Source of the DNA: a virus
DNA length: 28,227 nt
Virus record (IMG/VR): IMGVR_UViG_3300042444_000762
Span: 1-28,227 of that record
Reading direction: 5' to 3' (one strand)
Part shown: positions 1 through 21,059 of the stretch, piece after piece
Numbering within the stretch: position 1 is the stretch's first letter
Layout of the letters: each line of letters starts with the position of its first letter
The notes under the pieces: generated by a model
Databases searched by the model: none
What the model saw: only the letters and a program-made list of their open reading frames with translations
What the model was told of the DNA's origin: nothing
Translations under genes and position numbers: made by a program

Positions 1-196
1 GCAGGACATGAAAAAGGGATTGGTGTGCCCATTGGGAGCCAGATAGGCCTAAATAGGAGGGTAAATTCGCCAAAAATCAGTAGAATCAGGCCAACTCTTC
101 CTCAATCTGCACCAAGAACGTTCATTAGGAACAAATCGGAGCGCAAACTGCGTTTCACGACCTTGTTGCCCAGAGCTTCCCTAACGCACGCTCCCC
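1..196. other. Left-edge intergenic region
   Basis: This stretch is visibly less GC-rich than the rest. I find no convincing reading frame, hairpin or RNA gene. A purine-rich stretch near 52-62 is not followed by a plausible start. It probably holds the promoter of the two small rightward genes, but I cannot point to a clear -35/-10 pair. Confidence 0.4.
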
Positions 197-469
197 ATGG
201 ACGAATCAGCCACTGCCCGGTTCAGGGGCTACAGCCACCTGAGGAAAGAGTTCGCCGAGTTGAACATGCCTGGGCATAACTTTGTGCAGCTTGCTGAAAC
301 GAGCCGCTGCCTGCACATTCACCTGCGATCTGACGGCTCAGTGCCTGATGCAATTCAGGAGCTGTTCGACCGGCTGAACCAAGAAGCCGCCTGGCTGGAG
401 ATCACGCAGCAGGAAGACGATTCCTTCACTTTTAGTGTTATCACTCCCATGCAAGCGCAAGGCGGCTGA
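197..469 (+). CDS. Small hypothetical protein, 90 aa
   Basis: The protein is acidic and soluble, with a mixed alpha/beta look: an N-terminal helical part, then a predicted strand (LHIHLRSDG), an amphipathic helix (PDAIQELFDRLNQEAAWLEI) and a final strand. I do not recognise the family. Translation from the ATG at 197 fits, and the next gene begins 3 bases after its stop, so the two are probably co-transcribed. Codon use is like that of the neighbouring phage genes. There is no signal peptide and no membrane segment. Confidence 0.6.
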   Translation: MDESATARFRGYSHLRKEFAELNMPGHNFVQLAETSRCLHIHLRSDGSVPDAIQELFDRLNQEAAWLEITQQEDDSFTFSVITPMQAQGG

Positions 470-472
470 GAC

Positions 473-757
473 ATGACGGATTTCAGCAAGATCACTGCGA
501 TCACAGAAGGCTTCGCGTCTAGCTCCCCATTGATCGATGGTTGGACCTGGAGCACAGATCCGCCAGCAGGCGCCGGCTGGTTCGCCGTCTTGTTGAGCTA
601 CGAAGAAGACGGCACCAGTACCCATGCCATGGTTTTCGCCGGAGGCCGTGCACGTACGTTCACTGCTGGGACTCTTCTCGCCCATGCCGGCCCGTTCTCC
701 GATCAAGCTACTGCCGAGGCATGGGGCTACGACCACGATCCAGACGATCAGGACTGA
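473..757 (+). CDS. Small hypothetical protein, 94 aa
   Basis: The family is not recognised. The residue pattern is rich in Trp, Gly and small residues (DGWTWSTDPPAGAGWFAVLL), which suggests a compact beta-rich fold, and it ends in an acidic tail. It follows the 90-aa gene by 3 bases and likely shares its mRNA. Its stop codon (755-757) directly abuts the stop of the leftward MuF gene (758-760), forming the palindrome TGATCA, so the two transcription units converge here with no spacer and no obvious terminator. Confidence 0.6.
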   Translation: MTDFSKITAITEGFASSSPLIDGWTWSTDPPAGAGWFAVLLSYEEDGTSTHAMVFAGGRARTFTAGTLLAHAGPFSDQATAEAWGYDHDPDDQD

Positions 758-2143
758 TCACACCTCCAGCTCCGCCACCTCAATGACCATGGCCTCGTAG
801 GCCTCGCGAGCGGCTGCATTGATCCAGCCCCGGGAGGGTGTCCAGACCGGATCCCCTGATGGCCAAGGCCTGGCGCCACCGTTGGCTGGGTTGTTCTCAG
901 TTTTGGGCCGGGGGGTGGTGGCCGGCAGGGCGGTGCGTTCCATCAGGGGGTAGTCCCGCGGGCCCCGGGGCTCACCGGTGCCGCCGATCGGCCGCCAGGG
1001 CCTGCTGCTGGCCTCGTCGTACTTCTTGCGGGTCGCCGCGGCCAGGGCCTGCTGCTGATCCTCCCAGCGCTCGCGGCGGTTGGCCGCCAGCTGGTTCTGG
1101 ATCACCAGCGCCTCCAGGGTGATCGGGGAGAGACTGCACCGGCATCGGGGATGGATGGGGGTCTTCACGCTGCCGGCGTAATAGAGGCAGCCCATCCGGG
1201 GCGCGCAGAACTCGCAGACCCGATCGTCGGCGGTGGCCACGTACCGCACAAAGCCGACCCCGATCCGGCGGAAGGTGCGCTCCCTGGCCTCGCCGGCGGC
1301 GATGTGGGTTTCGGTGCGGGCCACGGTCTCGGCCCGGTTCCTGAAGGCGTCGTTGATGTGGGGCAGTCGGGCCTTGAGGGTGCGGGCCAGGGCGCGGCTG
1401 TCGACGCCGGTGGCCATCTGAGTGGCGGTCTCGAACTGCACGGCATCGCCCCAGTCGCGCCACCAGCGGAAGAAATAGTCCTTCGATGCCCAGACCCGAT
1501 CGGAGGTGGCGGCGTTGCGCTGGCGGCGGTAGTTGGCGCTGAGGGTCTTGAAGTCCCGCTCCGAGGCTGCGATGACGGCCCCCAGGTTCAGGAGCCTGGT
1601 GAAGGACTGCCCCTCCTGGTAGGGGCTGCCCGGGGCCGGCGCATCGGTGGGGGCCGGTGGTGCCGCCGGTGGCAGCTGGGGATCCTGCAGCGACGGGTGG
1701 CGGCTGCTGAGCACGGCGGCCGGTGGGAGCATGTCCCGCGACAGCTCAAGGGCGTACTCAGTCCCCAGATCTTGGGCCCGGTTGTAGAGCTCCGTCAGCT
1801 CACGGTTCAGGGCTGCATTGGCTGCCCGATCGGCCGGGAAGCGGTTGATGATCGCCTGCAAGTCCTGGGCCAGCTGGCCCTGCAGGTAGAGGCTGGCCTG
1901 GTCTTTCTGCAGCGGGGTGATCGGCACCGGGCCATCCGGGGTGGAGCCCAGGAATGCGCCGGGGGTGGTGGCCGGGTCGTAGTCGGGCTGGGCCTCGATC
2001 CGCTCCAGGCGATCCATCAGGCTGCGGATGGTGCGGCGCAGCGCCTCATCGAAGATCCTCCGGAGCTTGCGCAGCTGCTGGTCCTCCAGGCCCCGCAGCT
2101 CCTGGTCGAGCTGCTCGATCAGCTCGATCGAGCGGTCAGCCAT
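758..2143 (-). CDS. MuF-like minor head protein
   Basis: This is a phage Mu gpF-like head morphogenesis protein (461 aa), a family of minor capsid proteins that act in head assembly and are often ejected with DNA. The diagnostic core is at residues 270-340: an ARTE segment (275-278), then C-x2-C at 310/313 (CEFC) and the terminal HPRCRC signature (331-336), a probable metal-binding site. The N-terminal 130 residues are helical and charged. A Pro/Ala linker follows at about 158-172. A 120-residue C-terminal extension beyond the core ends in an acidic helix. The start at 2143 overlaps the end of the preceding gene by 8 bases, implying translational coupling. It is the last gene of the leftward portal-to-head block in this window. 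Confidence 0.9.
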   Translation of the reverse strand: MADRSIELIEQLDQELRGLEDQQLRKLRRIFDEALRRTIRSLMDRLERIEAQPDYDPATTPGAFLGSTPDGPVPITPLQKDQASLYLQGQLAQDLQAIINRFPADRAANAALNRELTELYNRAQDLGTEYALELSRDMLPPAAVLSSRHPSLQDPQLPPAAPPAPTDAPAPGSPYQEGQSFTRLLNLGAVIAASERDFKTLSANYRRQRNAATSDRVWASKDYFFRWWRDWGDAVQFETATQMATGVDSRALARTLKARLPHINDAFRNRAETVARTETHIAAGEARERTFRRIGVGFVRYVATADDRVCEFCAPRMGCLYYAGSVKTPIHPRCRCSLSPITLEALVIQNQLAANRRERWEDQQQALAAATRKKYDEASSRPWRPIGGTGEPRGPRDYPLMERTALPATTPRPKTENNPANGGARPWPSGDPVWTPSRGWINAAAREAYEAMVIEVAELEV

Positions 2144-4244
2144 TCAGGGAGCCACAGAGCGCCCGCAGGCCATCGATCCGTTGCTGGAGCTTCCTCGGAT
2201 GAGCTCGGCGATCGGCGGCCGCGGCCTGGTAGGCCTCCTGGAGCAGCCGCTGGATTCGCTCATCGCGGCTGTCGGTGCGGTTGTTGGGACCTGGGAACTT
2301 CTCCGCTTTGACCCGCGCAAGCAAAGCATCGAACATCGGCTCCATCTCTTCCGCCTGCTTGCGGGTGGGCCACAGCTCATGTCCAGTAGGTTGGGTCAGG
2401 TAGGTGTTAACCCGTTTGGCCTTATCCAGCTTCAGCTGGACGTGGGCCTCGAATGCCCTGGCAAACATCTCCTCGCGGCTCGTCCAGTAGTCAGCGCTGA
2501 TGCCTAAGCCGCCCTTCTTCATGCTCCGCACTGCCACCTGGACCTGATCTGCAAAGCCTGACTTGATCATCGACCACTGCACCTGGTTCATGGACTCGAT
2601 CAGCTCGGGGGTGCCTCTGTTCTGCGAAACGAAACCAGTGCCGCCTGCTGCGTAGTTGTCCAGCGCGTGCGCCCATTCGTGGGCAAAGGTGCCGACGCCG
2701 TTCTTGCGGGTGAGGTTGATCACCTTCAGGTCAGGCTCGAAGTGCGCCATGGCACCGCCTCGACCACGTGCACCAATAGCCAATCCCAAGGTGCCGTTTA
2801 GGCCAACTGCTCGGTCAGGCAGACCGGTCATGTCTGCCAGATCAACCATGGCTTCAGCGGCTTTCTGGACGTGGTGGCGGCGCTCATCGTCGGTGACCGA
2901 GTTGCCGTACTGCAGGCCGCGGAAGCCGAGCTTGTTGACGATGGTGTCGGTGGCGGCCTGGGCGGTGCTTCCAACCGAGCGGCCACCGACGCGGCGCTCT
3001 CCGGCCACGTAGAGGTCGGCGGCGCTGAATCGCTTCTTGCCACCCCCCTCCTTCCCGAAGGCGCTGCCGACAGTGGCGCCTTCCAGAATTTTCGTGCCGG
3101 TTTCCACGGCACGGGCCATAGATTTGCCTGCGTCAGATAAACCGGTTTCCGTTTTTAAGAACTTGGCGAACTCATTCATCTGCCCGTAGACAGTTGACGT
3201 CGAGCGCCCCGACATCATCAGTCGTTTCTGCATAGGCACCAGGGCATTAGCGGCTGGATTGAATGAATCTCTATAGGTCCTTGTATAGCCAGAACCCTCC
3301 AGGCCGCGGATGCGGTCGATGATGCCCCCAACTCTTTGCCCCAATGCCATGCGGAGCTTCCCGGGTGGCATGTCTTTGTTTTCTTCTACAAATGTACGAA
3401 CTTCCTGAAAGGCGTCAAAGTATTGCTTGCGCACTGTTTTGGCGTCGACAGCTTGCTCGTCAGAAGTTGGTTTGCGGCCCGTGGCGCGGTCATACTCTGC
3501 GCTGTTCCGCTTACGCCGAGCGACGCCTTCGGTGTAGCTCTCAACGTCTTTTGCCGCAAGGTTTGGGAATGTCTTGAGGCTGTAGTGGGCCTCGAGGCGC
3601 GCAAGCACGTTCCCCTCATTGACACCACTGATCAGGTCCGTCGGGAAGTTCTTCATCAGGATGTCCCTGGTGAGGATCTTCTCCACTTGGCCACTGGCTT
3701 CGGCCTCCTCGATCGTTCTGAAAGCGTTGCGCCTGTGGCGGGCGGAGTCGACGATGTCCTCTCCTGCGTTGCCCACGGCCGAGGCCCGGGCGAACTCGTA
3801 ATCCGGATCGCCTTCCTTGGCTGCCCGATCGGCCTCTCCCCTTGGCGTGCCGGCCGGGGCCTTGCCAGTGCTGGAGGGGGGCGTGGCCGCCTTGGCTGCT
3901 GCGGCCTCAGCCGCTTGCTTCTCTGCTGCTGCCTTGGCCTTCTCAGCGGCCACCTGCTGGCGCCCGCTGCGGAGCTGGCCCGCCTTCTCCCCCCGGCGGG
4001 TGGCGATCGCCCCGGCCAGCTCACCGGCCTCCTTCTGCCGCACCTGTGCAATCCCCCGCTGAGAGGAGGCCCCGCCGGCGGCAAGCGCGAGCAAGCGCTT
4101 CATGCGCTCCTTCCCCATCGCCGTTCGGGGAGTGGTGCGGCATTCCTTCCGCAAGCTGATGCAGGCGCTGCCGCAGCCGTAGCCGGTGCTGCACTTCTTC
4201 CGCAGGGCATCGAGTCGGTGCTGTAGCGAAACCGCCAGGCTCAT
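2136..4244 (-). CDS. LPD1-domain polyvalent protein with HExxH zincin motif
   Basis: This is a 702-aa multidomain protein. Residues 18-36 hold a Cys-rich motif (C18, GYGCGSACISL, C35), followed by a basic TAMGKERMKRLL segment. I have the impression this Cys motif recurs in cyanobacterial phage head genes. Residues 65-145 are an Ala/Glu/Lys coiled-coil-like linker. Residues about 415-530 match LPD1 (large polyvalent protein-associated domain 1): LGFRGLQYGNSVT, then GLNGTLGLAIGARGRG, then AHFEP, then VINLTRKNGVGTFAHEWAHALD. The HEWAH at 522-526 is a classic zinc-metallopeptidase signature. Polyvalent proteins are typically packaged or delivered with phage DNA, so this is a candidate injected effector or a head-maturation protease (inference). 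It overlaps the portal stop by 4 bases (ATGA). The stretch coding for residues 200-300 is less GC-rich than the rest. Confidence 0.85.
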   Translation of the reverse strand: MSLAVSLQHRLDALRKKCSTGYGCGSACISLRKECRTTPRTAMGKERMKRLLALAAGGASSQRGIAQVRQKEAGELAGAIATRRGEKAGQLRSGRQQVAAEKAKAAAEKQAAEAAAAKAATPPSSTGKAPAGTPRGEADRAAKEGDPDYEFARASAVGNAGEDIVDSARHRRNAFRTIEEAEASGQVEKILTRDILMKNFPTDLISGVNEGNVLARLEAHYSLKTFPNLAAKDVESYTEGVARRKRNSAEYDRATGRKPTSDEQAVDAKTVRKQYFDAFQEVRTFVEENKDMPPGKLRMALGQRVGGIIDRIRGLEGSGYTRTYRDSFNPAANALVPMQKRLMMSGRSTSTVYGQMNEFAKFLKTETGLSDAGKSMARAVETGTKILEGATVGSAFGKEGGGKKRFSAADLYVAGERRVGGRSVGSTAQAATDTIVNKLGFRGLQYGNSVTDDERRHHVQKAAEAMVDLADMTGLPDRAVGLNGTLGLAIGARGRGGAMAHFEPDLKVINLTRKNGVGTFAHEWAHALDNYAAGGTGFVSQNRGTPELIESMNQVQWSMIKSGFADQVQVAVRSMKKGGLGISADYWTSREEMFARAFEAHVQLKLDKAKRVNTYLTQPTGHELWPTRKQAEEMEPMFDALLARVKAEKFPGPNNRTDSRDERIQRLLQEAYQAAAADRRAHPRKLQQRIDGLRALCGSLNG

Positions 4245-6208
4245 CCTTCTGCCCCATCCCCCGCAAGGTAGGCATCACACAGGGCCCCCATCGCCACAAG
4301 GTCAAGGGCATTGATCTGGCGGATTGTGGGCTCGACGCCGATGGCATCACGGATCCCGCGCTGGTGCTGGTGCCCCATGGCCAGCAGGTAGGCGCCGCTG
4401 CTGGGCTCGAACACCTCCCAGGCGCCGCTCAGATCCGGACCCACCGCCACCGGGTAGGGCAGGGTCTGCCCGTAGGGGCCCATCAGGCGGCCGATGCCGG
4501 GGCCATCCATGCGGATCGACACCCCGAAGATCTGATGGATCTGGCCGGCGGCATCGCTGCGGGGCTCCTCATCCCGTCGGCGCTTGCGGCGGCCACGGTG
4601 CTCGGTGATCTGCTCGGCTAGTGCCTGGGCCCGCTCTTCGCAGGCATCACAGCAGGGCTCATCGGCGGCATCGTTGCGGGGCGGCGTCTGGGGCGGCGTG
4701 GCGCCCTCCAGCCCAGCATCACCGCCTGTGGCCGGAGCCTCCCCGGGGGTCGCTGCCGGGCCCCCCTCAAGGGTGCCGCCGAACTCCACCGGGGCCTCCT
4801 GCTTCGGCTGCGGGATGGATCCATCGTCCTCCCGATTCAACAGGGTGGTGTCCATGCTGAAGCGGGGCTTCCCGAAGCGGGCCAGGGCCACCTCGTTGGG
4901 CTGCAGCACACCGGCCTGGATGTACTGGGCGTCGGCTGTGGCGACCTTCGACCGCAGCTCAGCCTGTTCGTCTTCCGTGGGGGTGTAGGTGGGCCGGAAG
5001 GTGATCTCCCAGTCGGCGGGGGGGGCTTTCCCTTTCCATGGGCCTTCGGCGCAGGCCATCACCAACTCGTAGACCCGCCGCAGAGGCTCTTTGAGGTGCT
5101 GGGCCTGCCAGTCGGCCACCTCATTGCCAAAAGCGGCCTGCTCACTGCGGCCATCGGCCCCCAGGCCGGAAGGTGACTCACCCCACAAAAGGGTGTGGGG
5201 GAGGCCTGATGCGCCGGTGATCTCGCTTTTAAGGTTGGCGATGATGTCGGCGATGCCGGCTGCCGAGCGATTGAGGTTGGTGAGCTCCTCGTTGTCGCTT
5301 AGGAGGTAGGCGCCGATGGTGCTGCGGGCCAGGGCGTTGGTCTGCAGGCGCTGGCGGAGCACATCTTCCCCACCTTTGGAAAGCATGTTGGTCAACCCCG
5401 GCAGCTTGTGCACCACCAGGTCGAAGTCGTGGAGGATGTCCGACGCCGATTGCTGGCCGGTCTCCCACCGCTTGAAGACATCCCAGACCAGGTCCACCAC
5501 GGAGACCCCCCACCCCTGCCGCTCCTGCTGTGACCGCCAGGAGCAGGGGAGCCCCTCGATGCGGATCACCCGGCTGCTGTGGATCTCAATTTGGGTGGCT
5601 TCGGTGAGGCCCAGGCCAGCACTGGTTACCACCTTGCTGCCGGCCTGATCGTTGAGCTTCTGCAGCTCCTGATCGGCCTGAGTCCAGAACCAATAGCTTT
5701 CCGGCTCGCCGATGCCGGACCAGCCGGCGGCGGGGTAGAGACGCCAACGATCGATCGGGTAGAAGCCGTGGATGGTCCGGAGCCGCTTGAGGTTCAGAGG
5801 CTTGTCGATCGGGGTGCGGTCGTCGGCGATCAGCACCAGGGCGCCACCGCCATAGAGGCGGCTGTAGGTGGCGGCCGCGGCCAGGCCCTGGCGGAGGTGG
5901 AGCTTTTCGGTCCAACCCACGACGTCATCGAGCTGGGCCTTCATGCGGCTGGAGGTTTCATCCCCCACCGACAGGTCCCAGCCGCTGCGGGTGCCCTGCT
6001 GGGGGAGTTTCTCCACGATCCGGCGGATCAGCCAGGACTGCTCATAGAGGGCATCGACAGCAGATTCAGAGAGGATCCGGCTGCGCTTGACGCCGATCGC
6101 TTCGTTTCGGTCCTTCGCGGTGCCCAGGCCGGTGAGGACGTTGATCAGGGCGCCATCAAGCCGCCACTCAGATCGGGAATCAGCGGAGCTCAGGAAACCA
6201 ATCGACAC
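4241..6208 (-). CDS. Phage portal protein (DUF1073-like)
   Basis: The 655-aa protein fits the DUF1073/portal group. Conserved segments include SWLIRRIVEKLPQQGTRSGW (58-77), LYGGGALVLIADD (118-130), GFYPIDRWRLYP (148-159) and SGLPHTLLWGESPSGLGADG (334-353). Portals form the dodecameric DNA channel at the head vertex and dock terminase. The start is GTG at 6208. Residues about 470-520 are a Pro/Gly-rich linker. The last 110 residues carry CCDAC, a basic RRKRRRDE stretch and a small globular domain I do not recognise. I see no 2H-phosphoesterase HxT motifs that would suggest a fused Acb1 domain. Its closest late-gene partner, terminase, is separated from it by an inverted regulatory cassette. 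A 145-bp part of the gene (5156-5300) recurs at 8705-8849. Confidence 0.9.
   Translation of the reverse strand: MSIGFLSSADSRSEWRLDGALINVLTGLGTAKDRNEAIGVKRSRILSESAVDALYEQSWLIRRIVEKLPQQGTRSGWDLSVGDETSSRMKAQLDDVVGWTEKLHLRQGLAAAATYSRLYGGGALVLIADDRTPIDKPLNLKRLRTIHGFYPIDRWRLYPAAGWSGIGEPESYWFWTQADQELQKLNDQAGSKVVTSAGLGLTEATQIEIHSSRVIRIEGLPCSWRSQQERQGWGVSVVDLVWDVFKRWETGQQSASDILHDFDLVVHKLPGLTNMLSKGGEDVLRQRLQTNALARSTIGAYLLSDNEELTNLNRSAAGIADIIANLKSEITGASGLPHTLLWGESPSGLGADGRSEQAAFGNEVADWQAQHLKEPLRRVYELVMACAEGPWKGKAPPADWEITFRPTYTPTEDEQAELRSKVATADAQYIQAGVLQPNEVALARFGKPRFSMDTTLLNREDDGSIPQPKQEAPVEFGGTLEGGPAATPGEAPATGGDAGLEGATPPQTPPRNDAADEPCCDACEERAQALAEQITEHRGRRKRRRDEEPRSDAAGQIHQIFGVSIRMDGPGIGRLMGPYGQTLPYPVAVGPDLSGAWEVFEPSSGAYLLAMGHQHQRGIRDAIGVEPTIRQINALDLVAMGALCDAYLAGDGAEG
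5156..5300 (-). repeat. Portal segment duplicated at 8705-8849 (parent copy)
   Basis: My hand alignment gives 123 of 145 bases identical with no gap to the second copy. It encodes portal residues about 304-352, including SAAGIAD, SEITGASGLPHTL and WGESPSGLGAD. Both copies have the same orientation and reading frame, and they are 3.5 kb apart. Confidence 0.92.
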
Positions 6209-6245
6209 GGGCCAGTGCGCTTAGGCCCAGGGTAGGCCTGGCGAG
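6209..6245. promoter_or_regulatory. Divergent portal/sigma spacer with small inverted repeat
   Basis: Only 37 bases separate the portal start (leftward) from the earliest sigma start (rightward). The spacer holds an interrupted palindrome, AGGCC-7 nt-GGCCT, at 6223-6239, which could be an operator or a weak hairpin. A TATATC/GATATA element lies just inside the sigma ORF at 6250-6257, but no matching -35 is convincing on either strand. Its regulatory role is inferred from position only. Confidence 0.35.
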
Positions 6246-7172
6246 TTGGCTATATCACTGGCCAACGACGTTACGCGCCATAGGCTGGGGCCGAACATCA
6301 GCCCTAGTCCATTGGGCGCCCCGCTCGATTCGCTGCTCGGTTCGTATGCGCGGCTGCCCATCCCCTCCAGGGAGGAGCAGGTGTTGCTGGGTCGGGCCAT
6401 CCGGAAGTGGCTGGACTGGGATCCAGCTCCAGAGAAGGCCCCGCCTGGTGTGCAGCGGGCCGGCCGGCGGGCGCGGGATCGGATGGTGGCCCGCAACATG
6501 CTGCTGGTGGCGACACAGGCCCGCTCGTTTTCGGTGTCCTCGGTGGTGGCCCTGGAGCCGCAGGACCTGATCCAGGAGGGTGCGATCGGGCTCACCAGGG
6601 CGGCGGAGAAATACGACCCCACGCGGGGCTTCAGTTTCGCGACCTATGCGGTTCCGTGGATCCGGCAGTCGATGACCCGGCTGGTGCACACCTCCGGATC
6701 GATTCGACTCCCAGTGAAGCGGGCATCGAAGATGCACCAGCTGCGCCAATGGGTGGAGGCCTTCACAGCCCGTGAGGGCCGATCACCGACGGATCAGGAG
6801 GCAATGGAGGGGATGGAGATCAGCGCTGCTGACCTGCTGATCCTGCGGCAGGCGGCCGCCGTGCGGCAGGTGGTTTCGCTCGATGCCTTGGATTGCGATC
6901 GCGAGGGGCGCGGGGATACCCTCCTCGCCACCATGGCGGCACCAACGACAACAGAGGACATTGCAAACAGAGAGCGTGCCCAAGTGTTGGAGGCGCTGAA
7001 ACCCTGGCCTGATCTGCAGGAGATCATGGAGCGCCGGCTGGACGGGCACAGCTGCCAGGAGGCCGGCCTGGCGATGGGGCTCACCCGATTGGCCGCCGAA
7101 CGGCTGTGGGAGCAAGCACTGGCGATGGCGCAGCACCTGATGGGCGGCGATCACTGGCACGGCAGGTGCTAG
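6246..7172 (+). CDS. Phage-encoded sigma-70 family factor
   Basis: This 308-aa protein shows sigma-70 architecture. A region 1.2-like helix is at 36-57 (RLPIPSREEQVLLGRAIRKW). Region 2 is at about 75-147 with ARNMLLVATQARSF, LEPQDLIQEGAIGLTRAAEK, YDPTRGFSFATYAVPWIRQS. Region 3 starts at SGSIRLPVKRASKMHQLRQW. Region 4 is at about 245-300. The first half resembles cyanobacterial RpoD/SigA-type factors. Region 4 is short, and its expected recognition helix reads GLTRLAAERLWEQAL where housekeeping factors have an SRERVRQIE-like helix, so -35 recognition is probably altered or lost. The first start is TTG at 6246; another TTG at 6312 would still keep region 1.2. Neither has a strong ribosome-binding site. 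It probably redirects host RNA polymerase to phage promoters, with the LexA-like and wHTH genes downstream as partners. Confidence 0.88.
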   Translation: MAISLANDVTRHRLGPNISPSPLGAPLDSLLGSYARLPIPSREEQVLLGRAIRKWLDWDPAPEKAPPGVQRAGRRARDRMVARNMLLVATQARSFSVSSVVALEPQDLIQEGAIGLTRAAEKYDPTRGFSFATYAVPWIRQSMTRLVHTSGSIRLPVKRASKMHQLRQWVEAFTAREGRSPTDQEAMEGMEISAADLLILRQAAAVRQVVSLDALDCDREGRGDTLLATMAAPTTTEDIANRERAQVLEALKPWPDLQEIMERRLDGHSCQEAGLAMGLTRLAAERLWEQALAMAQHLMGGDHWHGRC

Positions 7173-7184
7173 CTGGAGCTGTTC

Positions 7185-7271
7185 GTGACCGAGATTGAGA
7201 TCGAGCAGCAGCTGCTCCTGTTCCCCCAGGCCGCGCCGGTGCTGTGGCGAAAGCGTCGGCGTCGCTCCTGA
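7185..7271 (+). CDS. Possible 28-aa basic peptide
   Basis: A GTG-started frame lies 12 bases after the sigma stop and encodes a Gln/Leu-rich N-terminus and a strongly basic tail (RKRRRRS). It lies between the sigma gene and a candidate promoter at 7296. Nothing but position and codon use supports it; it may simply be spacer. Confidence 0.25.
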   Translation: MTEIEIEQQLLLFPQAAPVLWRKRRRRS

Positions 7272-7295
7272 GATGGGATAGCACTGATGCGCTAG

Positions 7296-7322
7296 TTGGG
7301 AGTAAGTTCATCCCGGTATAAC
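7296..7322 (+). promoter_or_regulatory. Candidate sigma-70 promoter for the lexA-like gene
   Basis: TTGGGA at 7296-7301 and TATAAC at 7317-7322 are separated by 15 bases, slightly short but usable, and lie 15 bases before the ATG at 7337. The surrounding 7272-7330 stretch is AT-richer than the flanking genes. If real, this is a short-leader promoter for the three small regulator genes, independent of the sigma gene. Confidence 0.4.
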
Positions 7323-7336
7323 GACGTTGTGAATCC

Positions 7337-7624
7337 ATGGCGGAAACGGCCAACGGCCCTGGCCCTGCAGGCGAGATCCAGACCGAGCGCGGGCTGAGCC
7401 AATCACAGCAGCTCACGCTGAACGCCGTTAGGCAGTACATCGATCAGCACGGCATCCCGCCGAGCTTTCGCGACGTGATGGTGGTGCGGCAGCTGGCCTC
7501 CACCAGCACAATCCAGGCTCATTTCAAGCACCTCCAGGCAGCCGGGGCCATTGATGTGCGCGATGGAGTGCCTCGGTCCGTGCGGGTGCTGTGGCCCCGG
7601 CCAAAGCGTCGGAGGGGCGGTTGA
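7337..7624 (+). CDS. Stand-alone LexA-type DNA-binding domain
   Basis: The 95-aa protein aligns with the N-terminal winged helix of LexA: LTLNAVRQYIDQHGIPPSFR, then a turn and recognition helix (LASTSTIQAHFKHLQAAGAI), then the wing (VRDGVPRSVRVL). Full LexA is about 200 residues with an Ala-Gly cleavage site and a Ser/Lys peptidase. None of that is present, so this protein cannot self-cleave. It ends in a basic RPKRRRGG tail. It is probably a transcription regulator that may compete at SOS-like operators or act constitutively; that is inference. Its stop overlaps the next start (TGATG), so the downstream gene is translationally coupled. Confidence 0.85.
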   Translation: MAETANGPGPAGEIQTERGLSQSQQLTLNAVRQYIDQHGIPPSFRDVMVVRQLASTSTIQAHFKHLQAAGAIDVRDGVPRSVRVLWPRPKRRRGG

Positions 7625-7914
7625 TGGGCTGGGGCGACTGGAGGGTGCCCGAGCTCACAGAGGAGGTTGAGTTTCGGCTCAAGGTGCAGGAACTGATGGT
7701 GCGAAGCACGTTCAGGCGCAATCCTGAGGCCGTGCTGCACCAGGCACTGCTGCTGGCCCGGGAGAAGGCAATTCTTGAACGAACCGTGGAGAAAGCCCAC
7801 CGGCGAATTATGGAGCTTGAGGTGGCAGCCGCTCTGGGTCAAGCAGGAGGGCGTAGCGAGGAAGGGCAAGCCAAGCGCGCCTGGCGGCCGTGGTGGTTTT
7901 GTCTGAAGCGATGA
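7624..7914 (+). CDS. Helical hypothetical protein, 96 aa
   Basis: This is a mostly alpha-helical, charged protein with a long heptad-like stretch (LLLAREKAILERTVEKAHRR) and a basic, Trp-rich C-terminus (KRAWRPWWFCLKR). I do not recognise the family. I chose the ATG at 7624 over one at 7591 because it gives a TGATG overlap with the LexA-like gene. The stop overlaps the next ATG as ATGA. It could be a dimerisation or anti-sigma-like partner of its neighbours, but there is no direct evidence for that. Confidence 0.65.
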   Translation: MGWGDWRVPELTEEVEFRLKVQELMVRSTFRRNPEAVLHQALLLAREKAILERTVEKAHRRIMELEVAAALGQAGGRSEEGQAKRAWRPWWFCLKR

Positions 7915-8393
7915 TCCAGCCCGCCTACCTGGCGCAGCTGCGGCGAGAGCTGCGGGCGGAGCAGGCAATGACGCTGGTGCAGATCGAGCAGCTGGTGCCC
8001 GGGTGGTGGCCAACGCTCACCGATCTGGCGGAACAGCTGGGCAGCGAGCGGGCGACCCTGAACCGTTGCCTGTCCCGGCTGGAGCGGCAGGGCCTGCTGC
8101 GGCGGGTGACCCGGGGCAACGGGGGGGGCACCTGGATATGGTGGGTGAAGCGCTCCGCCGATGACCAGCCCAACGACATCGAGGCGCCTAGGTGGCGGCT
8201 GAGGGATCAAGCGGGTGGGCGGGCGCAGGAGATCATCGTCGGCCAGGAGCGGGCCTTCGCTTCAGCCAAGGGGATCCCGTTCAACACGGTGCGCAACTTT
8301 CTGGCTGGCCACCGGCCGCTGCTGGCGAAGCGGTGGAAACTGGTCAGCTCGCCCCTGCAGCTCGTTGACGAGAGCGAGCAACTCGCTGCCTGA
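7911..8393 (+). CDS. Winged-HTH transcription regulator
   Basis: The 160-aa protein carries a MarR/IclR-style winged helix at about residues 28-75: TLTDLAEQLGSERATLNRCL, then SRLERQGLLRRVTRGNG and a wing ending in GGTWIWWVKRS. The C-terminal half has a second HTH-like pattern (FASAKGIPFNTVRNFLAGHR). The start at 7911 is preferred over an in-frame GTG at 7890 because it gives an ATGA overlap with the preceding gene. It is the last gene of the rightward cassette and overlaps the leftward zinc-ribbon gene by 50 bases at their 3' ends, so the cassette and the late operon collide here. Confidence 0.75.
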   Translation: MIQPAYLAQLRRELRAEQAMTLVQIEQLVPGWWPTLTDLAEQLGSERATLNRCLSRLERQGLLRRVTRGNGGGTWIWWVKRSADDQPNDIEAPRWRLRDQAGGRAQEIIVGQERAFASAKGIPFNTVRNFLAGHRPLLAKRWKLVSSPLQLVDESEQLAA

Positions 8394-8553
8394 GGTCTTC
8401 CCGGCCGGCTGGCGTGACAGCCCAGCAGCGGGAGCAGAGGCCATCACGGCCCGCACCACGGATCTGCTTCCCGCAGGTGGGGCACAGCCGCACCGGGGGG
8501 AGGGCGCCGGCCAGCCGGGCCCGGTAGCGGGCCCACTTTCTGGAGTCAGGCAT
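8344..8553 (-). CDS. Small zinc-ribbon protein, 69 aa
   Basis: A CPTCG motif followed 15 residues later by CSRCW gives a C-x2-C...C-x2-C zinc ribbon, flanked by basic helices (DSRKWARYRARLAG and REDLRQRVARSRQR). I chose the ATG at 8553 because it overlaps the upstream stop by the same 8 bases (ATGCCTGA) seen at two other junctions in this cluster. It is the last gene of the leftward packaging block before the inverted regulatory cassette. The likely role is nucleic-acid or protein binding; it cannot be specified. Confidence 0.65.
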   Translation of the reverse strand: MPDSRKWARYRARLAGALPPVRLCPTCGKQIRGAGRDGLCSRCWAVTPAGREDLRQRVARSRQRAAGAS

Positions 8554-8947
8554 GGCGGCGGCGGCCCCTGGCGCGGCGTGCGCGCCGCTTGCGGCCGATG
8601 GGGCTGCCTCGCTTGGCTTCAATAATTAGGCGTTCAAGCACGGCCACAGTGCGATGGGCTGCAATGCCAAAGGGGCGGAAGGCTACCGCCAGCGGATCGG
8701 TGTCGGCCCCTAGGCCGGAGGGGGACTCACCCCATATCAGGGTGTGAGGCAGGCCGGAGGCGCCGGTGATCTCGCTTCTGAGGTTGGCGATCATGTCGGC
8801 GATGCCGGCTGCCGAGCGGTTGAAGTTAGTGAGATCTTCGCCCTCGCTCAGTTCGATAGCGGCGGTTCGCTGCCACTGATCCAGCAGCTGTTGCTGCTCC
8901 TGGTTGAGAGGCGGGGGGAGGCCCGGCGGCCCGTGGGGGTCAGGCAT
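8546..8947 (-). CDS. Chimeric small protein containing a portal fragment, 133 aa
   Basis: The N-terminal 35 residues are Pro/Gln-rich (starting MPDPHGPPGLPPPLNQEQQQ). About 49 residues follow that match portal residues 304-352 at 42 of 49 positions (DLTNFNRSAAGIAD, SEITGASGLPHTLIWGE, SPSGLGAD). A C-terminal helix (VAVLERLIIEAKRG) and a very basic tail follow. The portal part cannot form a portal on its own. The reading frame is open throughout, and the DNA differences from the parent gene are mostly silent or conservative. The start at 8947 gives an 8-base ATGCCTGA overlap with the upstream gene. It could be a small head-associated protein built by recombination or a decaying remnant still in frame. 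Confidence 0.65.
   Translation of the reverse strand: MPDPHGPPGLPPPLNQEQQQLLDQWQRTAAIELSEGEDLTNFNRSAAGIADMIANLRSEITGASGLPHTLIWGESPSGLGADTDPLAVAFRPFGIAAHRTVAVLERLIIEAKRGSPIGRKRRARRARGRRRHA
8705..8849 (-). repeat. Partial portal duplication (second copy)
   Basis: This is the second copy of the portal segment at 5156-5300, in the same orientation and frame, with 123 of 145 bases identical by hand count. It encodes the middle of the chimeric 133-aa protein. Of the 22 mismatches few alter the protein (7 changes in 49 residues, all but one conservative). Confidence 0.92.
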
Positions 8948-9161
8948 CGTCAGCCTCTGCCAGCAGGCGGGCGGCTCTCGCAGCGGAGACCACACCGGAG
9001 TTGTTGCCATTCTCCAAAATTGCCAATGCCAAAACTTGAGAACGTTGCAGGCCCAAGGGGCTGTATTGGTCAATGAAGCTGCCTAGCCTGAGCACGGCTT
9101 CTTCAAGCTCTTGGCGATCTTGCTGTTGCTGAAAGTAATCGCGGGGGGTGGGGTCAGGCAT
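8940..9161 (-). CDS. Small hypothetical protein, 73 aa
   Basis: A helical protein with an N-terminal Gln-rich helix (RDYFQQQQDRQELEEAVLRL) and a second helical half (GVVSAARAARLLAEADDA). The family is not recognised. The ATG at 9161 is chosen because it overlaps the upstream stop by ATGCCTGA, giving an MPDP start like that of the next gene. The first residues (MPDP) and the upstream bases are nearly the same as in its downstream neighbour, which suggests a duplicated initiation region. Confidence 0.6.
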   Translation of the reverse strand: MPDPTPRDYFQQQQDRQELEEAVLRLGSFIDQYSPLGLQRSQVLALAILENGNNSGVVSAARAARLLAEADDA

Positions 9162-9336
9162 CAACAATCTCAACCATGGCGGGCCAATCGGGCATGGTCG
9201 GGTCGTAGGCGTCTTCGAGAGCCGGCCGCAGCTCGGCGCGGGTGACGCGGATCACGCCGCCATCAGCGCCCCATTCATGGAAATGGCCGCCTAGGTGCGT
9301 GCGGGCCAGGATTTTGTCAACCGTTGGGACAGTCAT
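9154..9336 (-). CDS. Small hypothetical protein, 60 aa
   Basis: Begins MTVPTVDKILARTHLGGHFH and ends with an acidic half (PALEDAYDPTMPDWPAMVEI). No family is recognised. The start at 9336 is the first ATG; a TTG at 9345 is also possible. The frame stays open further upstream and encodes PDPHGPPEP at about 9368-9394, a match to the leader of the chimeric portal-fragment gene, but the start codon expected there reads ACT instead of ATG. Confidence 0.5.
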   Translation of the reverse strand: MTVPTVDKILARTHLGGHFHEWGADGGVIRVTRAELRPALEDAYDPTMPDWPAMVEIVDA

Positions 9337-9391
9337 TGAAGGCAATGCACTGGGGATGGGTTGCCGTATGGGCTCCGGCGGGCCGTGGGGG

Positions 9392-9547
9392 TCAGGAGTA
9401 AGGGCAATCAGGGTTGCCGGTGGCCGTGTAACCCAGCTCAGCAGCGCAGCGTGCGAGGCGCACGTCCAGCTCGCGGGACTTGCGCTGAACCATGGCCCTG
9501 ATCTGAGCTTCGATCTGAACCAGGTGCGCGGGGGTGGGGGTGGTCAT
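9392..9547 (-). CDS. Small hypothetical protein, 51 aa
   Basis: The frame starts at ATG 9547 with MTTPTPAHLVQIEAQIRAMV, continues as a charged helix with RELDVRLARCAAELGY and ends TGNPDCPYS before TGA at 9392-9394. The helical periodicity and codon use are convincing despite its size. The start sits in an ATGA overlap with a frame ending at 9544. No known family. Confidence 0.55.
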   Translation of the reverse strand: MTTPTPAHLVQIEAQIRAMVQRKSRELDVRLARCAAELGYTATGNPDCPYS

Positions 9548-15508: not shown

Positions 15509-16053
15509 GGCCGCACCTCGCGGTCTTCGGGCTCGACCCACTTCAGGCCGATTCGATCAAACAGCTCGCGCTCTGTGCGGCAAGGCACGACAGGGCCAAG
15601 GCTGTAGATGCCTTCCGTGTTGTTCACGCGACGCAGCAACCCACCTTCAGAGCGATAGCCGGCACGAACCCAAGCCGGTGCCAGCACGGTGCGGCTCCAT
15701 TCTGCCGAGCCGGTCCTGATCGCCAGCTGAAGGCCGTAGCCATCCGGGTGAGGCATGAACAGATCGAGTTTCATCCCTTGCCACGGCAAGACCCGCTGGG
15801 TGTAGCGGCAGGGCAGCTCGCCTTTCACCTTCTCCCACTGGTTCACCACGGTGGCGATGCCAGAGCAGAACAGGGGAGAGGCGTCGTAGGGCTTGGGGAT
15901 GCAGACGATCTCCAGGTCGCCGATGGTGGGCCGGCGGCGGCGAATGCTGCCGGCGATGTCGATGCGCTCGCAGTGGGGCTTCAGCAGCTCCAGCACCTTG
16001 GCGGCGACACCATCGGCGGTGGCCAGGGACAGGCGGGTGGTGGTGGTGCTCAT
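15505..16053 (-). CDS. Minimal family X DNA polymerase-like nucleotidyltransferase
   Basis: The 182-aa protein matches the PolX palm and thumb. The GS-RR nucleotidyltransferase motif is GSIRRRRPTIGDLEIV at about 35-50, with metal ligands D and E (DLE instead of the usual DxD). The third acid is in MKLDLFMPH. The thumb-like part has RTGSAEWSRTVL, AGYRSEGGL and the C-terminal ELFDRIGLKWVEPEDRE, which follows the typical PolX ending. Bacterial PolX is 320-570 aa with 8-kDa, fingers and often PHP domains; only about 15 residues precede the palm region helix here. It could fill short gaps or add nucleotides untemplated. The start is in the repeat at 16041-16079, and it is ATGA-coupled to the next gene. 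Confidence 0.85.
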   Translation of the reverse strand: MSTTTTRLSLATADGVAAKVLELLKPHCERIDIAGSIRRRRPTIGDLEIVCIPKPYDASPLFCSGIATVVNQWEKVKGELPCRYTQRVLPWQGMKLDLFMPHPDGYGLQLAIRTGSAEWSRTVLAPAWVRAGYRSEGGLLRRVNNTEGIYSLGPVVPCRTERELFDRIGLKWVEPEDREVRP

Positions 16054-16079
16054 CCCTTCACGTCCTCCAGCAGGTCGAG
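16041..16079. repeat. 39-bp direct repeat, copy 1
   Basis: Matches 16444-16482 at 38 of 39 bases (one C/T change at 16071/16474). On the minus strand this copy holds the last sense-like bases of a DLLEDVKG end, the stop and the MSTT start of the PolX gene. Upstream of PolX the DLLEDVKG frame is not continued, so this end is a remnant. Confidence 0.92.
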
Positions 16080-16192
16080 GCGGAGGGTGGGGGTCACGGG
16101 GTTAGTGCAAGTGGGCATTGGTGGCGGGGCGGTTTGGCTTGGAATGTTCTGAGCCGTTAGTTCCTAGACGGGAAAAGTAATCTTGCTTGTAT

Positions 16193-16456
16193 CTAATGTG
16201 CGACCTTATATACAATGTTTGGATCAAATACTTCTCTCATTGGAAAGGATTTAATTGTGCCATTCCAGCCGACAATGGCATTGCCATTTTCGTATCGAAA
16301 AAACTCGTACGTGTTTTCATCGCTGGCGTGCGCTGCTGTGTCGCCTGGAGACAGGAGACGCATTTCGGCAAGCACGATCTCAATAGCTGAATCAATAATC
16401 TGATCGTTGTTCATGTTCGTATCAAAGCGGTGTGGTTTAGGATTGGTGGTGCTCAT
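16193..16456 (-). CDS. Small AT-richer hypothetical protein, 87 aa
   Basis: Starts MSTTNPKPHRFDTNMNNDQI, rich in Asn/Asp/Ile, with a C-terminal beta-rich part (ENTYEFFRYENGNAIVGWNG). The family is not recognised. Its base composition is clearly more AT-rich than its neighbours, and it lies between two 39-bp direct repeats, so it looks like an acquired cassette. The ATG at 16456 overlaps the upstream stop as ATGA. About 135 bases without a gene separate it from PolX. Confidence 0.65.
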   Translation of the reverse strand: MSTTNPKPHRFDTNMNNDQIIDSAIEIVLAEMRLLSPGDTAAHASDENTYEFFRYENGNAIVGWNGTIKSFPMREVFDPNIVYKVAH

Positions 16457-16482
16457 CCCTTCACGTCCTCCAGTAGGTCGAG
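16444..16482. repeat. 39-bp direct repeat, copy 2
   Basis: 38 of 39 bases match 16041-16079. On the minus strand it encodes the real end (DLLEDVKG) of the 93-aa gene, its stop, and the MSTT start of the 87-aa gene. The two copies are offset by 403 bp in the same orientation. Confidence 0.92.
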
Positions 16483-16734
16483 CAGGAGCATGCGGCGGGT
16501 GTCAGAGGGCCGGGGGTATTGCTCCAGGCGATGTAGCAACAGGGCCATCACGCGACGGCGCTCCATCTGCTGGCCATCGGCCAGTGCCTTGCGGAGCAGG
16601 ACATCCCCGCTCACCTCGGCGGTGGCTGCTTCCAGCAGGTAGGCGACAGCTGCGTCCAGCTGCTCACGGGCCGCGGCCAACGGATTGGGCTGCTGCAGCC
16701 TCGGCCAGGCGACGATCCCCTCAGCCATCTCCAT
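16453..16734 (-). CDS. Helical hypothetical protein, 93 aa
   Basis: All-helical pattern: AAREQLDAAVAYLLEAATAE, then RKALADGQQMERRRVMALLL and TRRMLLLDLLEDVKG. No family is recognised. It is GC-rich like the phage background, in contrast to the genes on either side. It overlaps the upstream 256-aa gene by 14 bases and the downstream gene by ATGA, so it is translationally coupled within the replication operon. Confidence 0.65.
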   Translation of the reverse strand: MEMAEGIVAWPRLQQPNPLAAAREQLDAAVAYLLEAATAEVSGDVLLRKALADGQQMERRRVMALLLHRLEQYPRPSDTRRMLLLDLLEDVKG

Positions 16735-18918: not shown

Positions 18919-19400
18919 CAGAGGCTCCCGGGCATGGAGGTCAACAGGCCGGCGGCCGCGGCCTGGGTGTTGGCCTTCTGCCGGCGGGCCTGCTCAGCGT
19001 TGGCCTGAACGCCAGCGAGGGCGCGCTGGCGGCGCTGGCGGTGGATGGCCTCGATGGCCTGCTGATCCAGCTCACGGCCCACCATGCGCGGACCGGCATC
19101 GGTCTCGAGACGGCGAATGCCGGCGGAATCGCGAAACCCGCCGCGGCCTTCCCTGGGGTAGGCGGCATTGCAGCAGCAGATGATCGCCGGATGAAGCCCG
19201 CCACAGACCTCCCCGGAAGGGAGGACGTCGTAGTTGGAGATGAACTCGTTGATCGCCCGGTCGTGGTTGCCGACGATGCCGGTGTCCGAGCAGGCGAAAC
19301 AGGCAAAGCCTGGGAGCACGAAAGCGGGGCCGGCGGCAGGGCGGCGCTTGTGCGGCGCTAGCGGCTCAGGTGCTGGAGCTGAGGGGAGCGTGAGCGTCAT
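18918..19400 (-). CDS. Cys-rich putative zinc-binding protein, 160 aa
   Basis: A zinc-ribbon-like N-terminal half holds CFACSDTGIVGNHDRAINEF, then a second Cys group with VCGG and IICCCNAAYPREGRGGFRDS, giving at least two C-x2-C-like sites. The C-terminus is a long helix rich in Ala, Gln and Arg (AIEAIHRQRRQRALAGVQAN). Similar C-x2-C-x-DTG proteins occur beside replication initiators in cyanobacterial phages and plasmids to my knowledge, but I cannot name the family. It overlaps the upstream replication gene by ATGA. It probably binds DNA or a helicase or primase partner. Confidence 0.7.
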   Translation of the reverse strand: MTLTLPSAPAPEPLAPHKRRPAAGPAFVLPGFACFACSDTGIVGNHDRAINEFISNYDVLPSGEVCGGLHPAIICCCNAAYPREGRGGFRDSAGIRRLETDAGPRMVGRELDQQAIEAIHRQRRQRALAGVQANAEQARRQKANTQAAAAGLLTSMPGSL

Positions 19401-20680
19401 TGGCCTGTGATGTGACGGTGGTAGGCGAATGGGTCAGGGGCGCCGGTTTCTGGATCGATCGGAGCCTCAAATGCGGCGGCGGCGGCGGGCTGGTTCTGCT
19501 GCAGGTAGGCGGCGAAACGGCGCTCCTTCAGCCAGCGAGCGATGTCAGGCAGGGATGGGGCAAAACCCGTGGAGGCGTGCTGCTGGTCCTGAGCGCGGAT
19601 TTCAGCAGCCAAGGCCCCTACCAGCTGCTCGGCGGTGTGGCCCTCAGCCAGCACGGCGGAAAACTCTCTCTGGGCAGCGGGCAGAGATTGACAAGGGACC
19701 CGACGGGGCGCCGCCAGGTAGGCGCTGCGAAGGGTGTCGAAGGCCTCAGCGGCTGCAGGGCCGGCGCGCAGCTGCTCGCAGCGACGGCGGTAGCCGGTGG
19801 CAAGACTTTTGCAACCGCTGGCCGCGGCGTGTTCGAGGAACGGCCGGAGGACCCCCAGAGCATCGGCGTGCTGGATGGCCTGGATGTCGCCAGCGTTGAG
19901 CTCGTTGGCCGCGGCGGGGTGCTTGCTGCGGCGCCTGAGCCACCACTCGCGCAGCAGTTGGCGGTATGGGCGGGCGCAGTCGGGAAGGGCTGAAGCGGTT
20001 GCTGGGGGCTGGGTTGCCGGTTGGGCATGGCGCTGGGGAGCGTCGTTGTGAGCTGAGAATATCACGATCTCGACCGCTGTCGCGACGGGCTCGGCCGTCG
20101 TGACCGTTGACGCCGCGGCATCGATTTTTTCGACGCGTTGGTGGATATATGTACTGGAGTAATCAATTAACCCTTCTTGGATTTCTTGTTCTTCGTTTAG
20201 AGGTTTATTGATTGGGTCCCCCCCAGGGGGAGTCCCCTCTGGGGGGAGGGGTCCCCTTCCGGGGGAGTCCCCCCTGGGGGGAGTGGGGGGCCCCTGGGGG
20301 GGACCCCCCTCTGGGGGGAGGGGGTGTGCTGACTTGCGCTGCACTGCAATGGGTTTCGCGGTTCGCTTTTTGCGGCCTGTTGCCATACGGATCCGGTATC
20401 GGTTTGTCCCGTTGGGTCCTTTGCCCGATTTGATGATCCAACCCTCACTAAGAAGGGTCGAAAGTGCCGTTCTGATGTCCCGTTCCTTCATGCCGCACTC
20501 CAGGGCAAGCCGAGGGACGGAAGGGAATCCGTCATCTGCTTGGCCGGCGTAAAACCAGAGCCAGGCATAGACGAATACCAACCTCCTGCGCCCTATCTGT
20601 GCACAGCTGCTCAGCAATTCGAGCGGAATCTGTGCAAACAGAGGGCGGTGCAACTCACCGCTGAAATCTTTGGTTGGCAT
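19397..20680 (-). CDS. Winged-helix replication-type protein with Pro/Gly linker
   Basis: The 427-aa protein starts MPTKDFSGELHRPLFAQIPL. It carries a winged-helix domain at about 15-100 (RRRLVFVYAWLWFYAGQADD, VPRLALECGMKERDIRTALS, TLLSEGWIIKSGKGPNGTNR), as in phage replication initiators of the O/DnaD type. A Pro/Gly linker at about 120-155 is encoded by the palindromic array at 20216-20325. A central low-complexity part follows, then a C-terminal helical domain (REWWLRRRSKHPAAANELNA, YRRRCEQLRAGPAAAEAFDT). It heads the leftward operon next to the large divergent spacer, as expected for an early replication initiator. Start 20680 is chosen because residues before it look unconserved. Confidence 0.75.
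   Translation of the reverse strand: MPTKDFSGELHRPLFAQIPLELLSSCAQIGRRRLVFVYAWLWFYAGQADDGFPSVPRLALECGMKERDIRTALSTLLSEGWIIKSGKGPNGTNRYRIRMATGRKKRTAKPIAVQRKSAHPLPPEGGPPQGPPTPPRGDSPGRGPLPPEGTPPGGDPINKPLNEEQEIQEGLIDYSSTYIHQRVEKIDAAASTVTTAEPVATAVEIVIFSAHNDAPQRHAQPATQPPATASALPDCARPYRQLLREWWLRRRSKHPAAANELNAGDIQAIQHADALGVLRPFLEHAAASGCKSLATGYRRRCEQLRAGPAAAEAFDTLRSAYLAAPRRVPCQSLPAAQREFSAVLAEGHTAEQLVGALAAEIRAQDQQHASTGFAPSLPDIARWLKERRFAAYLQQNQPAAAAAFEAPIDPETGAPDPFAYHRHITGQ
20216..20325. repeat. Tandem array of about six imperfect GC palindromes
   Basis: About six units of roughly 17-20 bp, each a C-run facing a G-run across 1-4 bases (such as TCCCCTCTGGGGGGA), stand head to tail. They lie inside the replication gene and encode alternating Pro and Gly residues. 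Each unit can form a stable hairpin in single-stranded DNA or RNA, and G-runs of 4-7 could form quadruplexes on both strands. Confidence 0.9.
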
Positions 20681-21059
20681 GTCAGGATCTGAGGTGGATG
20701 GTTCCACTCCCTGGAGCCTGCGGATCGCGGCTGTTGCAGTAGGATTGCCCTGTTGCGGCCATTGGTCCTGCTGGGGAGCGTGCCCGGTGGTCGCAGCCCG
20801 CAAGGGCAACATTGGCTCCGCCTCGGCGGGGCCTTTGTTGTTTGCGGGAAACCGACCAACAGATCTGGACCGTAGCGGATTCGAGATGGTATGGACCAGT
20901 GCTGTCTCAAATCTGCTGCCGCACAGTTCCCTCGCATCTGCTGCATGGCGCTATGTGGTTGTTGCGAGTGCGCTTCGTAGGGTGGCGGCGTGATTTCGCC
21001 TAGCACTTATGTTCGGCTCCAGATGGACCCGATCCCGGCCCTCACGCCTCAGAGCACCC
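20681..21059. promoter_or_regulatory. Divergent intergenic region between early operons
   Basis: This 379-base spacer separates the leftward replication operon from the rightward recombination module, so it should hold their early promoters and perhaps operators. I see no strong -35/-10 pair. It contains a hairpin with a T-rich tail (20814-20844) and a repeated ATCTGCTGC at 20911-20919 and 20935-20943, 24 bases apart, which could be operator half-sites. Open frames here are not credible as genes. Confidence 0.5.
20814..20844 (+). terminator. Possible Rho-independent terminator
   Basis: GGCTCCGCC (20814-20822) pairs with GGCGGGGCC (20825-20833) with one G-T pair, followed by TTTGTTGTTT. The tight 2-base loop would open to 4 or more. 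The orientation suits rightward transcripts entering from the left. It may insulate the recombination module. Confidence 0.35.

Follow-up and report, generated by a model that had tools for sequence, protein, structure and literature searches.

The locus examined here raises the question of how a piece of a phage portal gene came to lie in frame inside a small gene, and whether it does anything there. The window, by which we mean the whole 28.2-kb virus record analyzed, carries head genes for a DUF1073-type portal, a Mu F-like protein, and terminase. Its full-length resident portal gene (positions 4241 to 6208, minus strand) matches PF06381 at 214 bits and phrog_146 at E = 1.3e-85, with Synechococcus phage S-CBS4 as the best match among isolated phages (35% identity), and the virus is most likely a freshwater cyanosiphovirus. 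The predicted structure of the resident portal (overall pLDDT, 42) was too low in confidence for a fold search. Within that otherwise poor model, residues ∼555 to 640 form a beta-rich C-terminal part of fair predicted confidence (pLDDT, ∼80); relatives conserve this part, which the Pfam portal domain does not cover.

An inverted regulatory cassette (6246 to 8393, plus strand) is positioned between terminase and portal and encodes a sigma-70-type factor, a LexA-like helix-turn-helix (HTH) protein, a small open reading frame (ORF), and a winged-HTH protein. Scanning IMG/VR with the window portal yielded 43 contigs carrying a portal relative; 35 relatives reach upstream of the portal, and 29 span portal to terminase. 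No sigma factor was found in the portal neighborhood of S-CBS4, and therefore the cassette cannot be interpreted by comparison with this isolate. Scanning the window for Rfam families and tRNAs returned no match, and a promoter and terminator scan gave no signal exceeding that of shuffled sequences.

Structure of the chimeric gene

The chimeric small gene (8546 to 8947, minus strand) is an ORF of 133 codons with its ATG at 8947, preceded by a Shine-Dalgarno (SD)-like GAGG, and its TGA stop shares bases with the ATG of the gene that follows (ATGCCTGA). It consists of three parts, all on the minus strand: a 32-codon leader (8852 to 8947); a captured portal segment of 50 codons (8702 to 8851), whose homologous stretch in the resident portal is residues 303 to 352; and a basic C-terminal tail that belongs to the recipient gene family and ends in ..GSPIGRKRRARRARGRRRHA (8546 to 8701). 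A repeat search of the window recovered the portal segment as a direct repeat of 149 nt with 85% identity (8703 to 8851 versus the homologous segment of the resident portal, 5154 to 5302), and blastn of the chimeric gene against its own contig matched the portal pair at E = 7.6e-45, placing the resemblance far beyond chance. The alignment given in the earlier note (123 of 145 bp) was thus essentially right, as were its statements that the segment is in frame within a 133-amino-acid gene, the ORF being open throughout the portal stretch, and that it departs from the resident portal (residues 303 to 351) at 7 of 49 residues.

The likeness to portals of the Phage_portal_3/DUF1073 type (PF06381; PHROG 146; e.g., that of S-CBS4) is that of the homologous 50-codon segment. 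Pfam Phage_portal_3 matches chimera residues 16 to 82 at 28.3 bits, below the family cutoff of 33.8, over profile positions 219 to 286 of 357, and PHROG portal family 146 matches at E = 6.8e-8. Membership among phage portals requires the whole PF06381 domain above the curated cutoff; because the chimera covers only ∼68 of 357 profile positions, at a score below that cutoff, it cannot be a portal. The AlphaFold model of the chimera is of low confidence (pLDDT, 49), too low for a fold search, and the captured segment corresponds to about one predicted helix plus loops.

Copies of the fusion in other contigs

The same fusion is present in IMG/VR contigs from other samples, namely, L004, L013/L047 (a 67-kb contig), and L048. 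L004 is 100% identical to the window over positions 54 to 9532 (9.5 kb), and the two are therefore possibly the same virus. The chimeras of L013/L047 and L048 are identical to each other and 95% like that of the window. The window and L013 copies are separated by 21 nucleotide substitutions, among which are replacements in L013 of D by Y, A by S, and I by L, and the L013 copy has no ATG, only a TTG (or CTG) being available as a start. The window is a metagenomic contig, in which an assembly or binning artifact might have joined two phages, but the same junctions recur in the L004, L013/L047, and L048 records, with 5% divergence, which refutes this reading and leaves it with practically no probability. 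The fusion is therefore a real, natural gene common to two virus lineages. Searches of isolated phages for the chimera returned portal matches only.

Probable donor of the portal segment

Among sampled portals, the nearest to the window fragment are those of L013 (11 differences in 150 positions; 92.7% identity) and L036 (12 differences; 92.0%), compared with 23 differences from the resident portal. We defined 11 diagnostic sites as those at which the resident portal departs from the consensus of the L013, L036, and L005 portals. The window fragment carries the donor base at 10 of the 11 and the resident base at none; in the L013 fragment copy, the donor base is found at all 11 (resident base, 0). 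In the tree, the window and L013 fragments group together (UFBoot, 99) near the L013/L036/L005 portals. Diagnostic sites and tree both favor portals of this type and so support the proposal that the piece derives from another phage's portal. As judged from these alignments, both chimera copies are shown to have a single origin and a foreign donor. The donor signal is short (150 nt), and the true donor could be an unsampled portal. On the simplest history, the piece would have been captured from an L013-like portal, perhaps while still in an L013-like genome, and would then have passed into the lineage of the window.

Recipient gene and its surroundings

A portal-free counterpart of the chimera is present in L011, which is colinear with the window here: a 76-amino-acid gene (L011:2688-2918) has the same tail (DQLAAAFRPVGIAARRAAARLEPLYRLIIQAERGSPIGRKRRARRARGRRRHA) without the portal piece, and its alignment with the window ends at 8707. 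Further tail homologues without portal sequence were found in L049 (8136 to 8477), L058, L064, and L070. In L049 to L051 the tail stands behind another N terminus, and in L058, L064, and L070 it stands behind a third, so that the front end of this small gene is generally replaceable. No member of the tail family was confirmed in host genome contigs.

Downstream of the chimera is a zinc-ribbon-like gene (MPDSRKW..; 8344 to 8553, minus strand; weak Pfam DZR_2 match, below cutoff) that is linked to the chimera or the tail gene across relatives. Comparison of upstream sequences revealed a DNA box of ∼55 nt just before its start (8554 to 8608, minus strand), which is Arg-rich coding sequence and is nearly invariant in DNA, including synonymous sites, in otherwise diverged phages (window, L006, L011, L013, L049, L058, L064, and L070). 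In L006, 53 nt of the box are kept while the tail gene is replaced by a mere short ORF. The box is a possible recombination boundary or regulatory sequence. Sequence upstream of the zinc-ribbon start differs in many relatives, and by this comparison the small-gene site adjoining the cassette is hypervariable.

The leader is present only in carriers of the chimera. Its first ∼10 codons (8925 to 8947; ATGCCTGACCCCCACGGGCCGCCGGG) coincide with the 5′ portion of an intergenic start-site repeat, which extends from one gene's stop to the next gene's start in the pattern TGA..CACGGCCCGCCGGRGCC....CCGGCAACCCATYCCAC..ATG. What had been described as a Pro-rich leader is therefore, in part, a noncoding start-site repeat turned coding; for leader residues 11 to 32 (22 codons), no source was found among the loci compared. 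The repeat is 50 to 60 nt long, with a GCCGG..CCGGC hairpin showing some compensatory changes, and an intact copy (9346 to 9394, minus strand) precedes the small gene at 9154 to 9345. At least 11 IMG/VR contigs, belonging to different phage types, carry it between small genes that are unrelated to one another, with sites in the window (9346 to 9394 and the relic at 8925 to 8947), at L011:2349, L049:7904, and L058:3282, and in L059 to L069, whereas host genomes gave 0 matches to the exact pattern. In cluster K mycobacteriophages, Start-Associated Sequences (SAS) and ESAS are short, conserved elements with an inverted repeat just before the starts of small genes (PMC3203893). The repeat described here is likewise a conserved inverted-repeat element directly before the starts of several unrelated small genes, but its sequence, phages, and hosts differ from those of SAS/ESAS, and it has one hairpin, its 5′ end carrying the upstream stop codon.

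Probable assembly and transfer of the mosaic

The separate parts of the chimera have separate sources, since the portal segment and the tail family are each found apart and the L011 gene provides a portal-free parent at the same locus. No extended homology was seen at the 3′ junction when set against L011, L049, and portals, or at the 5′ junction when set against portals. Over 7970 to 8330 the window is 98 to 100% like L006/L011, and over 8390 to 8930 it is mostly 95 to 98% like L013, the similarity tract switching near 8390 to 8450; the match to L013 reaches only as far as 8953, which is 6 nt upstream of the ATG and adjoins the start motif. The chimera and zinc-ribbon gene of the window look L013-like, the neighboring HTH gene looks L006/L011-like, and the same chimera has different upstream neighbors in the window and in L013.

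We consider the chimera to be, probably but with room for doubt, a mosaic produced by illegitimate recombination at the hypervariable small-gene site between terminase and the inverted cassette and moved later as a short module. A portal piece of ∼150 nt, of the L013/L036 type, would have replaced an older front end, and on the simplest reading the chimera and zinc-ribbon gene would have moved between lineages together, as a short module with edges near gene boundaries. Phage mosaicism arising by illegitimate recombination or at short boundary sequences has been described (PMC3029335). As in the mosaic chimeric genes of mycobacteriophages (PMC3029335), junctions here are sharp and without extended homology, and the genes concerned are small, lack an assigned function, and have a parent gene in relatives; unlike in those cases, the junction is intragenic with the frame kept, and an essential structural gene served as donor. 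The fusion is ordinary in kind, with no sign of special action or a new mechanism. Its value is as a well-resolved case of small-gene birth in which donor clade, recipient, junctions, and later transfer can be read from relatives, and the more general lead is the wider locus, where the start-site repeat and boundary box are common to otherwise unrelated phage contigs.

The fragment lies only ∼0.3 kb beyond the cassette edge, from which the earlier note took the hint that recombination between portal copies had installed the inverted sigma-factor cassette. Not one of the 35 informative relatives, however, lacks the inverted sigma-factor gene, the most distant (L046; 48% portal identity) included, whereas only 1 of the 29 relatives spanning portal to terminase (L013) has the fragment and 28 lack it. 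In L013, moreover, the fragment adjoins the zinc-ribbon gene although the cassette-edge HTH gene is nearly gone. The cassette predates the fragment, and a role of the fragment in installing it is refuted, with next to no probability remaining.

Selection and possible function

Neither of the two diverged chimera copies contains a stop or frameshift, and they differ by 9 synonymous and 12 nonsynonymous changes (dN/dS, ∼0.47). In simulations of random mutation, stop-free outcomes with as few replacement codons were rare for the whole chimera (P ∼ 0.01 to 0.03) and for the fragment alone (P ∼ 0.005 to 0.02) but not for the tail (P ∼ 0.4 to 0.5). Between the fragment and its nearest portals, dN/dS is 0.24 to 0.78, versus 0.05 to 0.2 for most close portal pairs, and the differences from those portals that are common to both copies are conservative. 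The open frame and the few replacements hint at some protein-level role of the fragment, though exchange with portals could mimic this purifying signal. The fragment's replacements are mostly conservative, but portals show the same among themselves, and part of its divergence may predate capture; protein-level constraint on the chimera would therefore be weak at best and is not established. The first of the earlier note's two alternatives, divergence of the copy under such constraint, thus has weak support.

These data also bear on whether the portal piece is a meaningless scar, a decaying duplicate whose ORF is open by chance and untranslated. So few substitutions have accumulated since the split (21 nt) that the frame would probably be open even in the absence of selection (P of no stop, ∼0.6), comparison of the two copies reveals no constraint on the tail, the L013 copy lacks an ATG, and dN/dS of the fragment reaches 0.78 against the nearest portal. 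The in-frame fusion to the tail, the coupling overlap with neighboring genes, the SD-like GAGG before the ATG, and the mildly low replacement count speak against decay, which we regard as unlikely while granting it a minority share. At the other extreme, the chimera could be a putatively expressed accessory portal mimic that interferes with portal assembly of coinfecting relatives, as a decoy or dominant-negative fragment poisoning that of competitors, or that decoys a portal-sensing host defense. A fragment taken from a relative's portal rather than the resident one, whose frame is open in both diverged copies and shows a mild signal of purifying selection, would suit such a role. The fragment nevertheless changes freely (the D-to-Y, A-to-S, and I-to-L replacements in L013), has a dN/dS well above that of portals, amounts to about one predicted helix plus loops in a protein without a confident fold, and is missing from 28 of 29 spanning relatives; a literature search on dominant-negative portals and superinfection found no precedent under the terms used. 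We judge mimicry very improbable. Under the mosaic origin favored above, translation of the chimera would be coupled to that of the upstream gene, as its ATGCCTGA overlap and GAGG suggest, any activity would reside in the basic tail (nucleic acid or membrane association), and the portal piece would be mostly a passenger spacer tolerating substitutions.

Other repeats in the window

Two further repeats were observed elsewhere in the window. A 52-nt direct repeat (88% identity; TGGTGGTGCTCATCCCTTCACGTCCTCCAG..) occurs at 16041 to 16092 and 16444 to 16495, with a spacing of 403 nt, near the ends of two adjacent minus-strand ORFs. At 20214 to 20320, inside the minus-strand ORF 19397 to 20812, a 35-nt G/C-rich unit is present three times in tandem, and these copies encode a Pro/Gly-rich linker.
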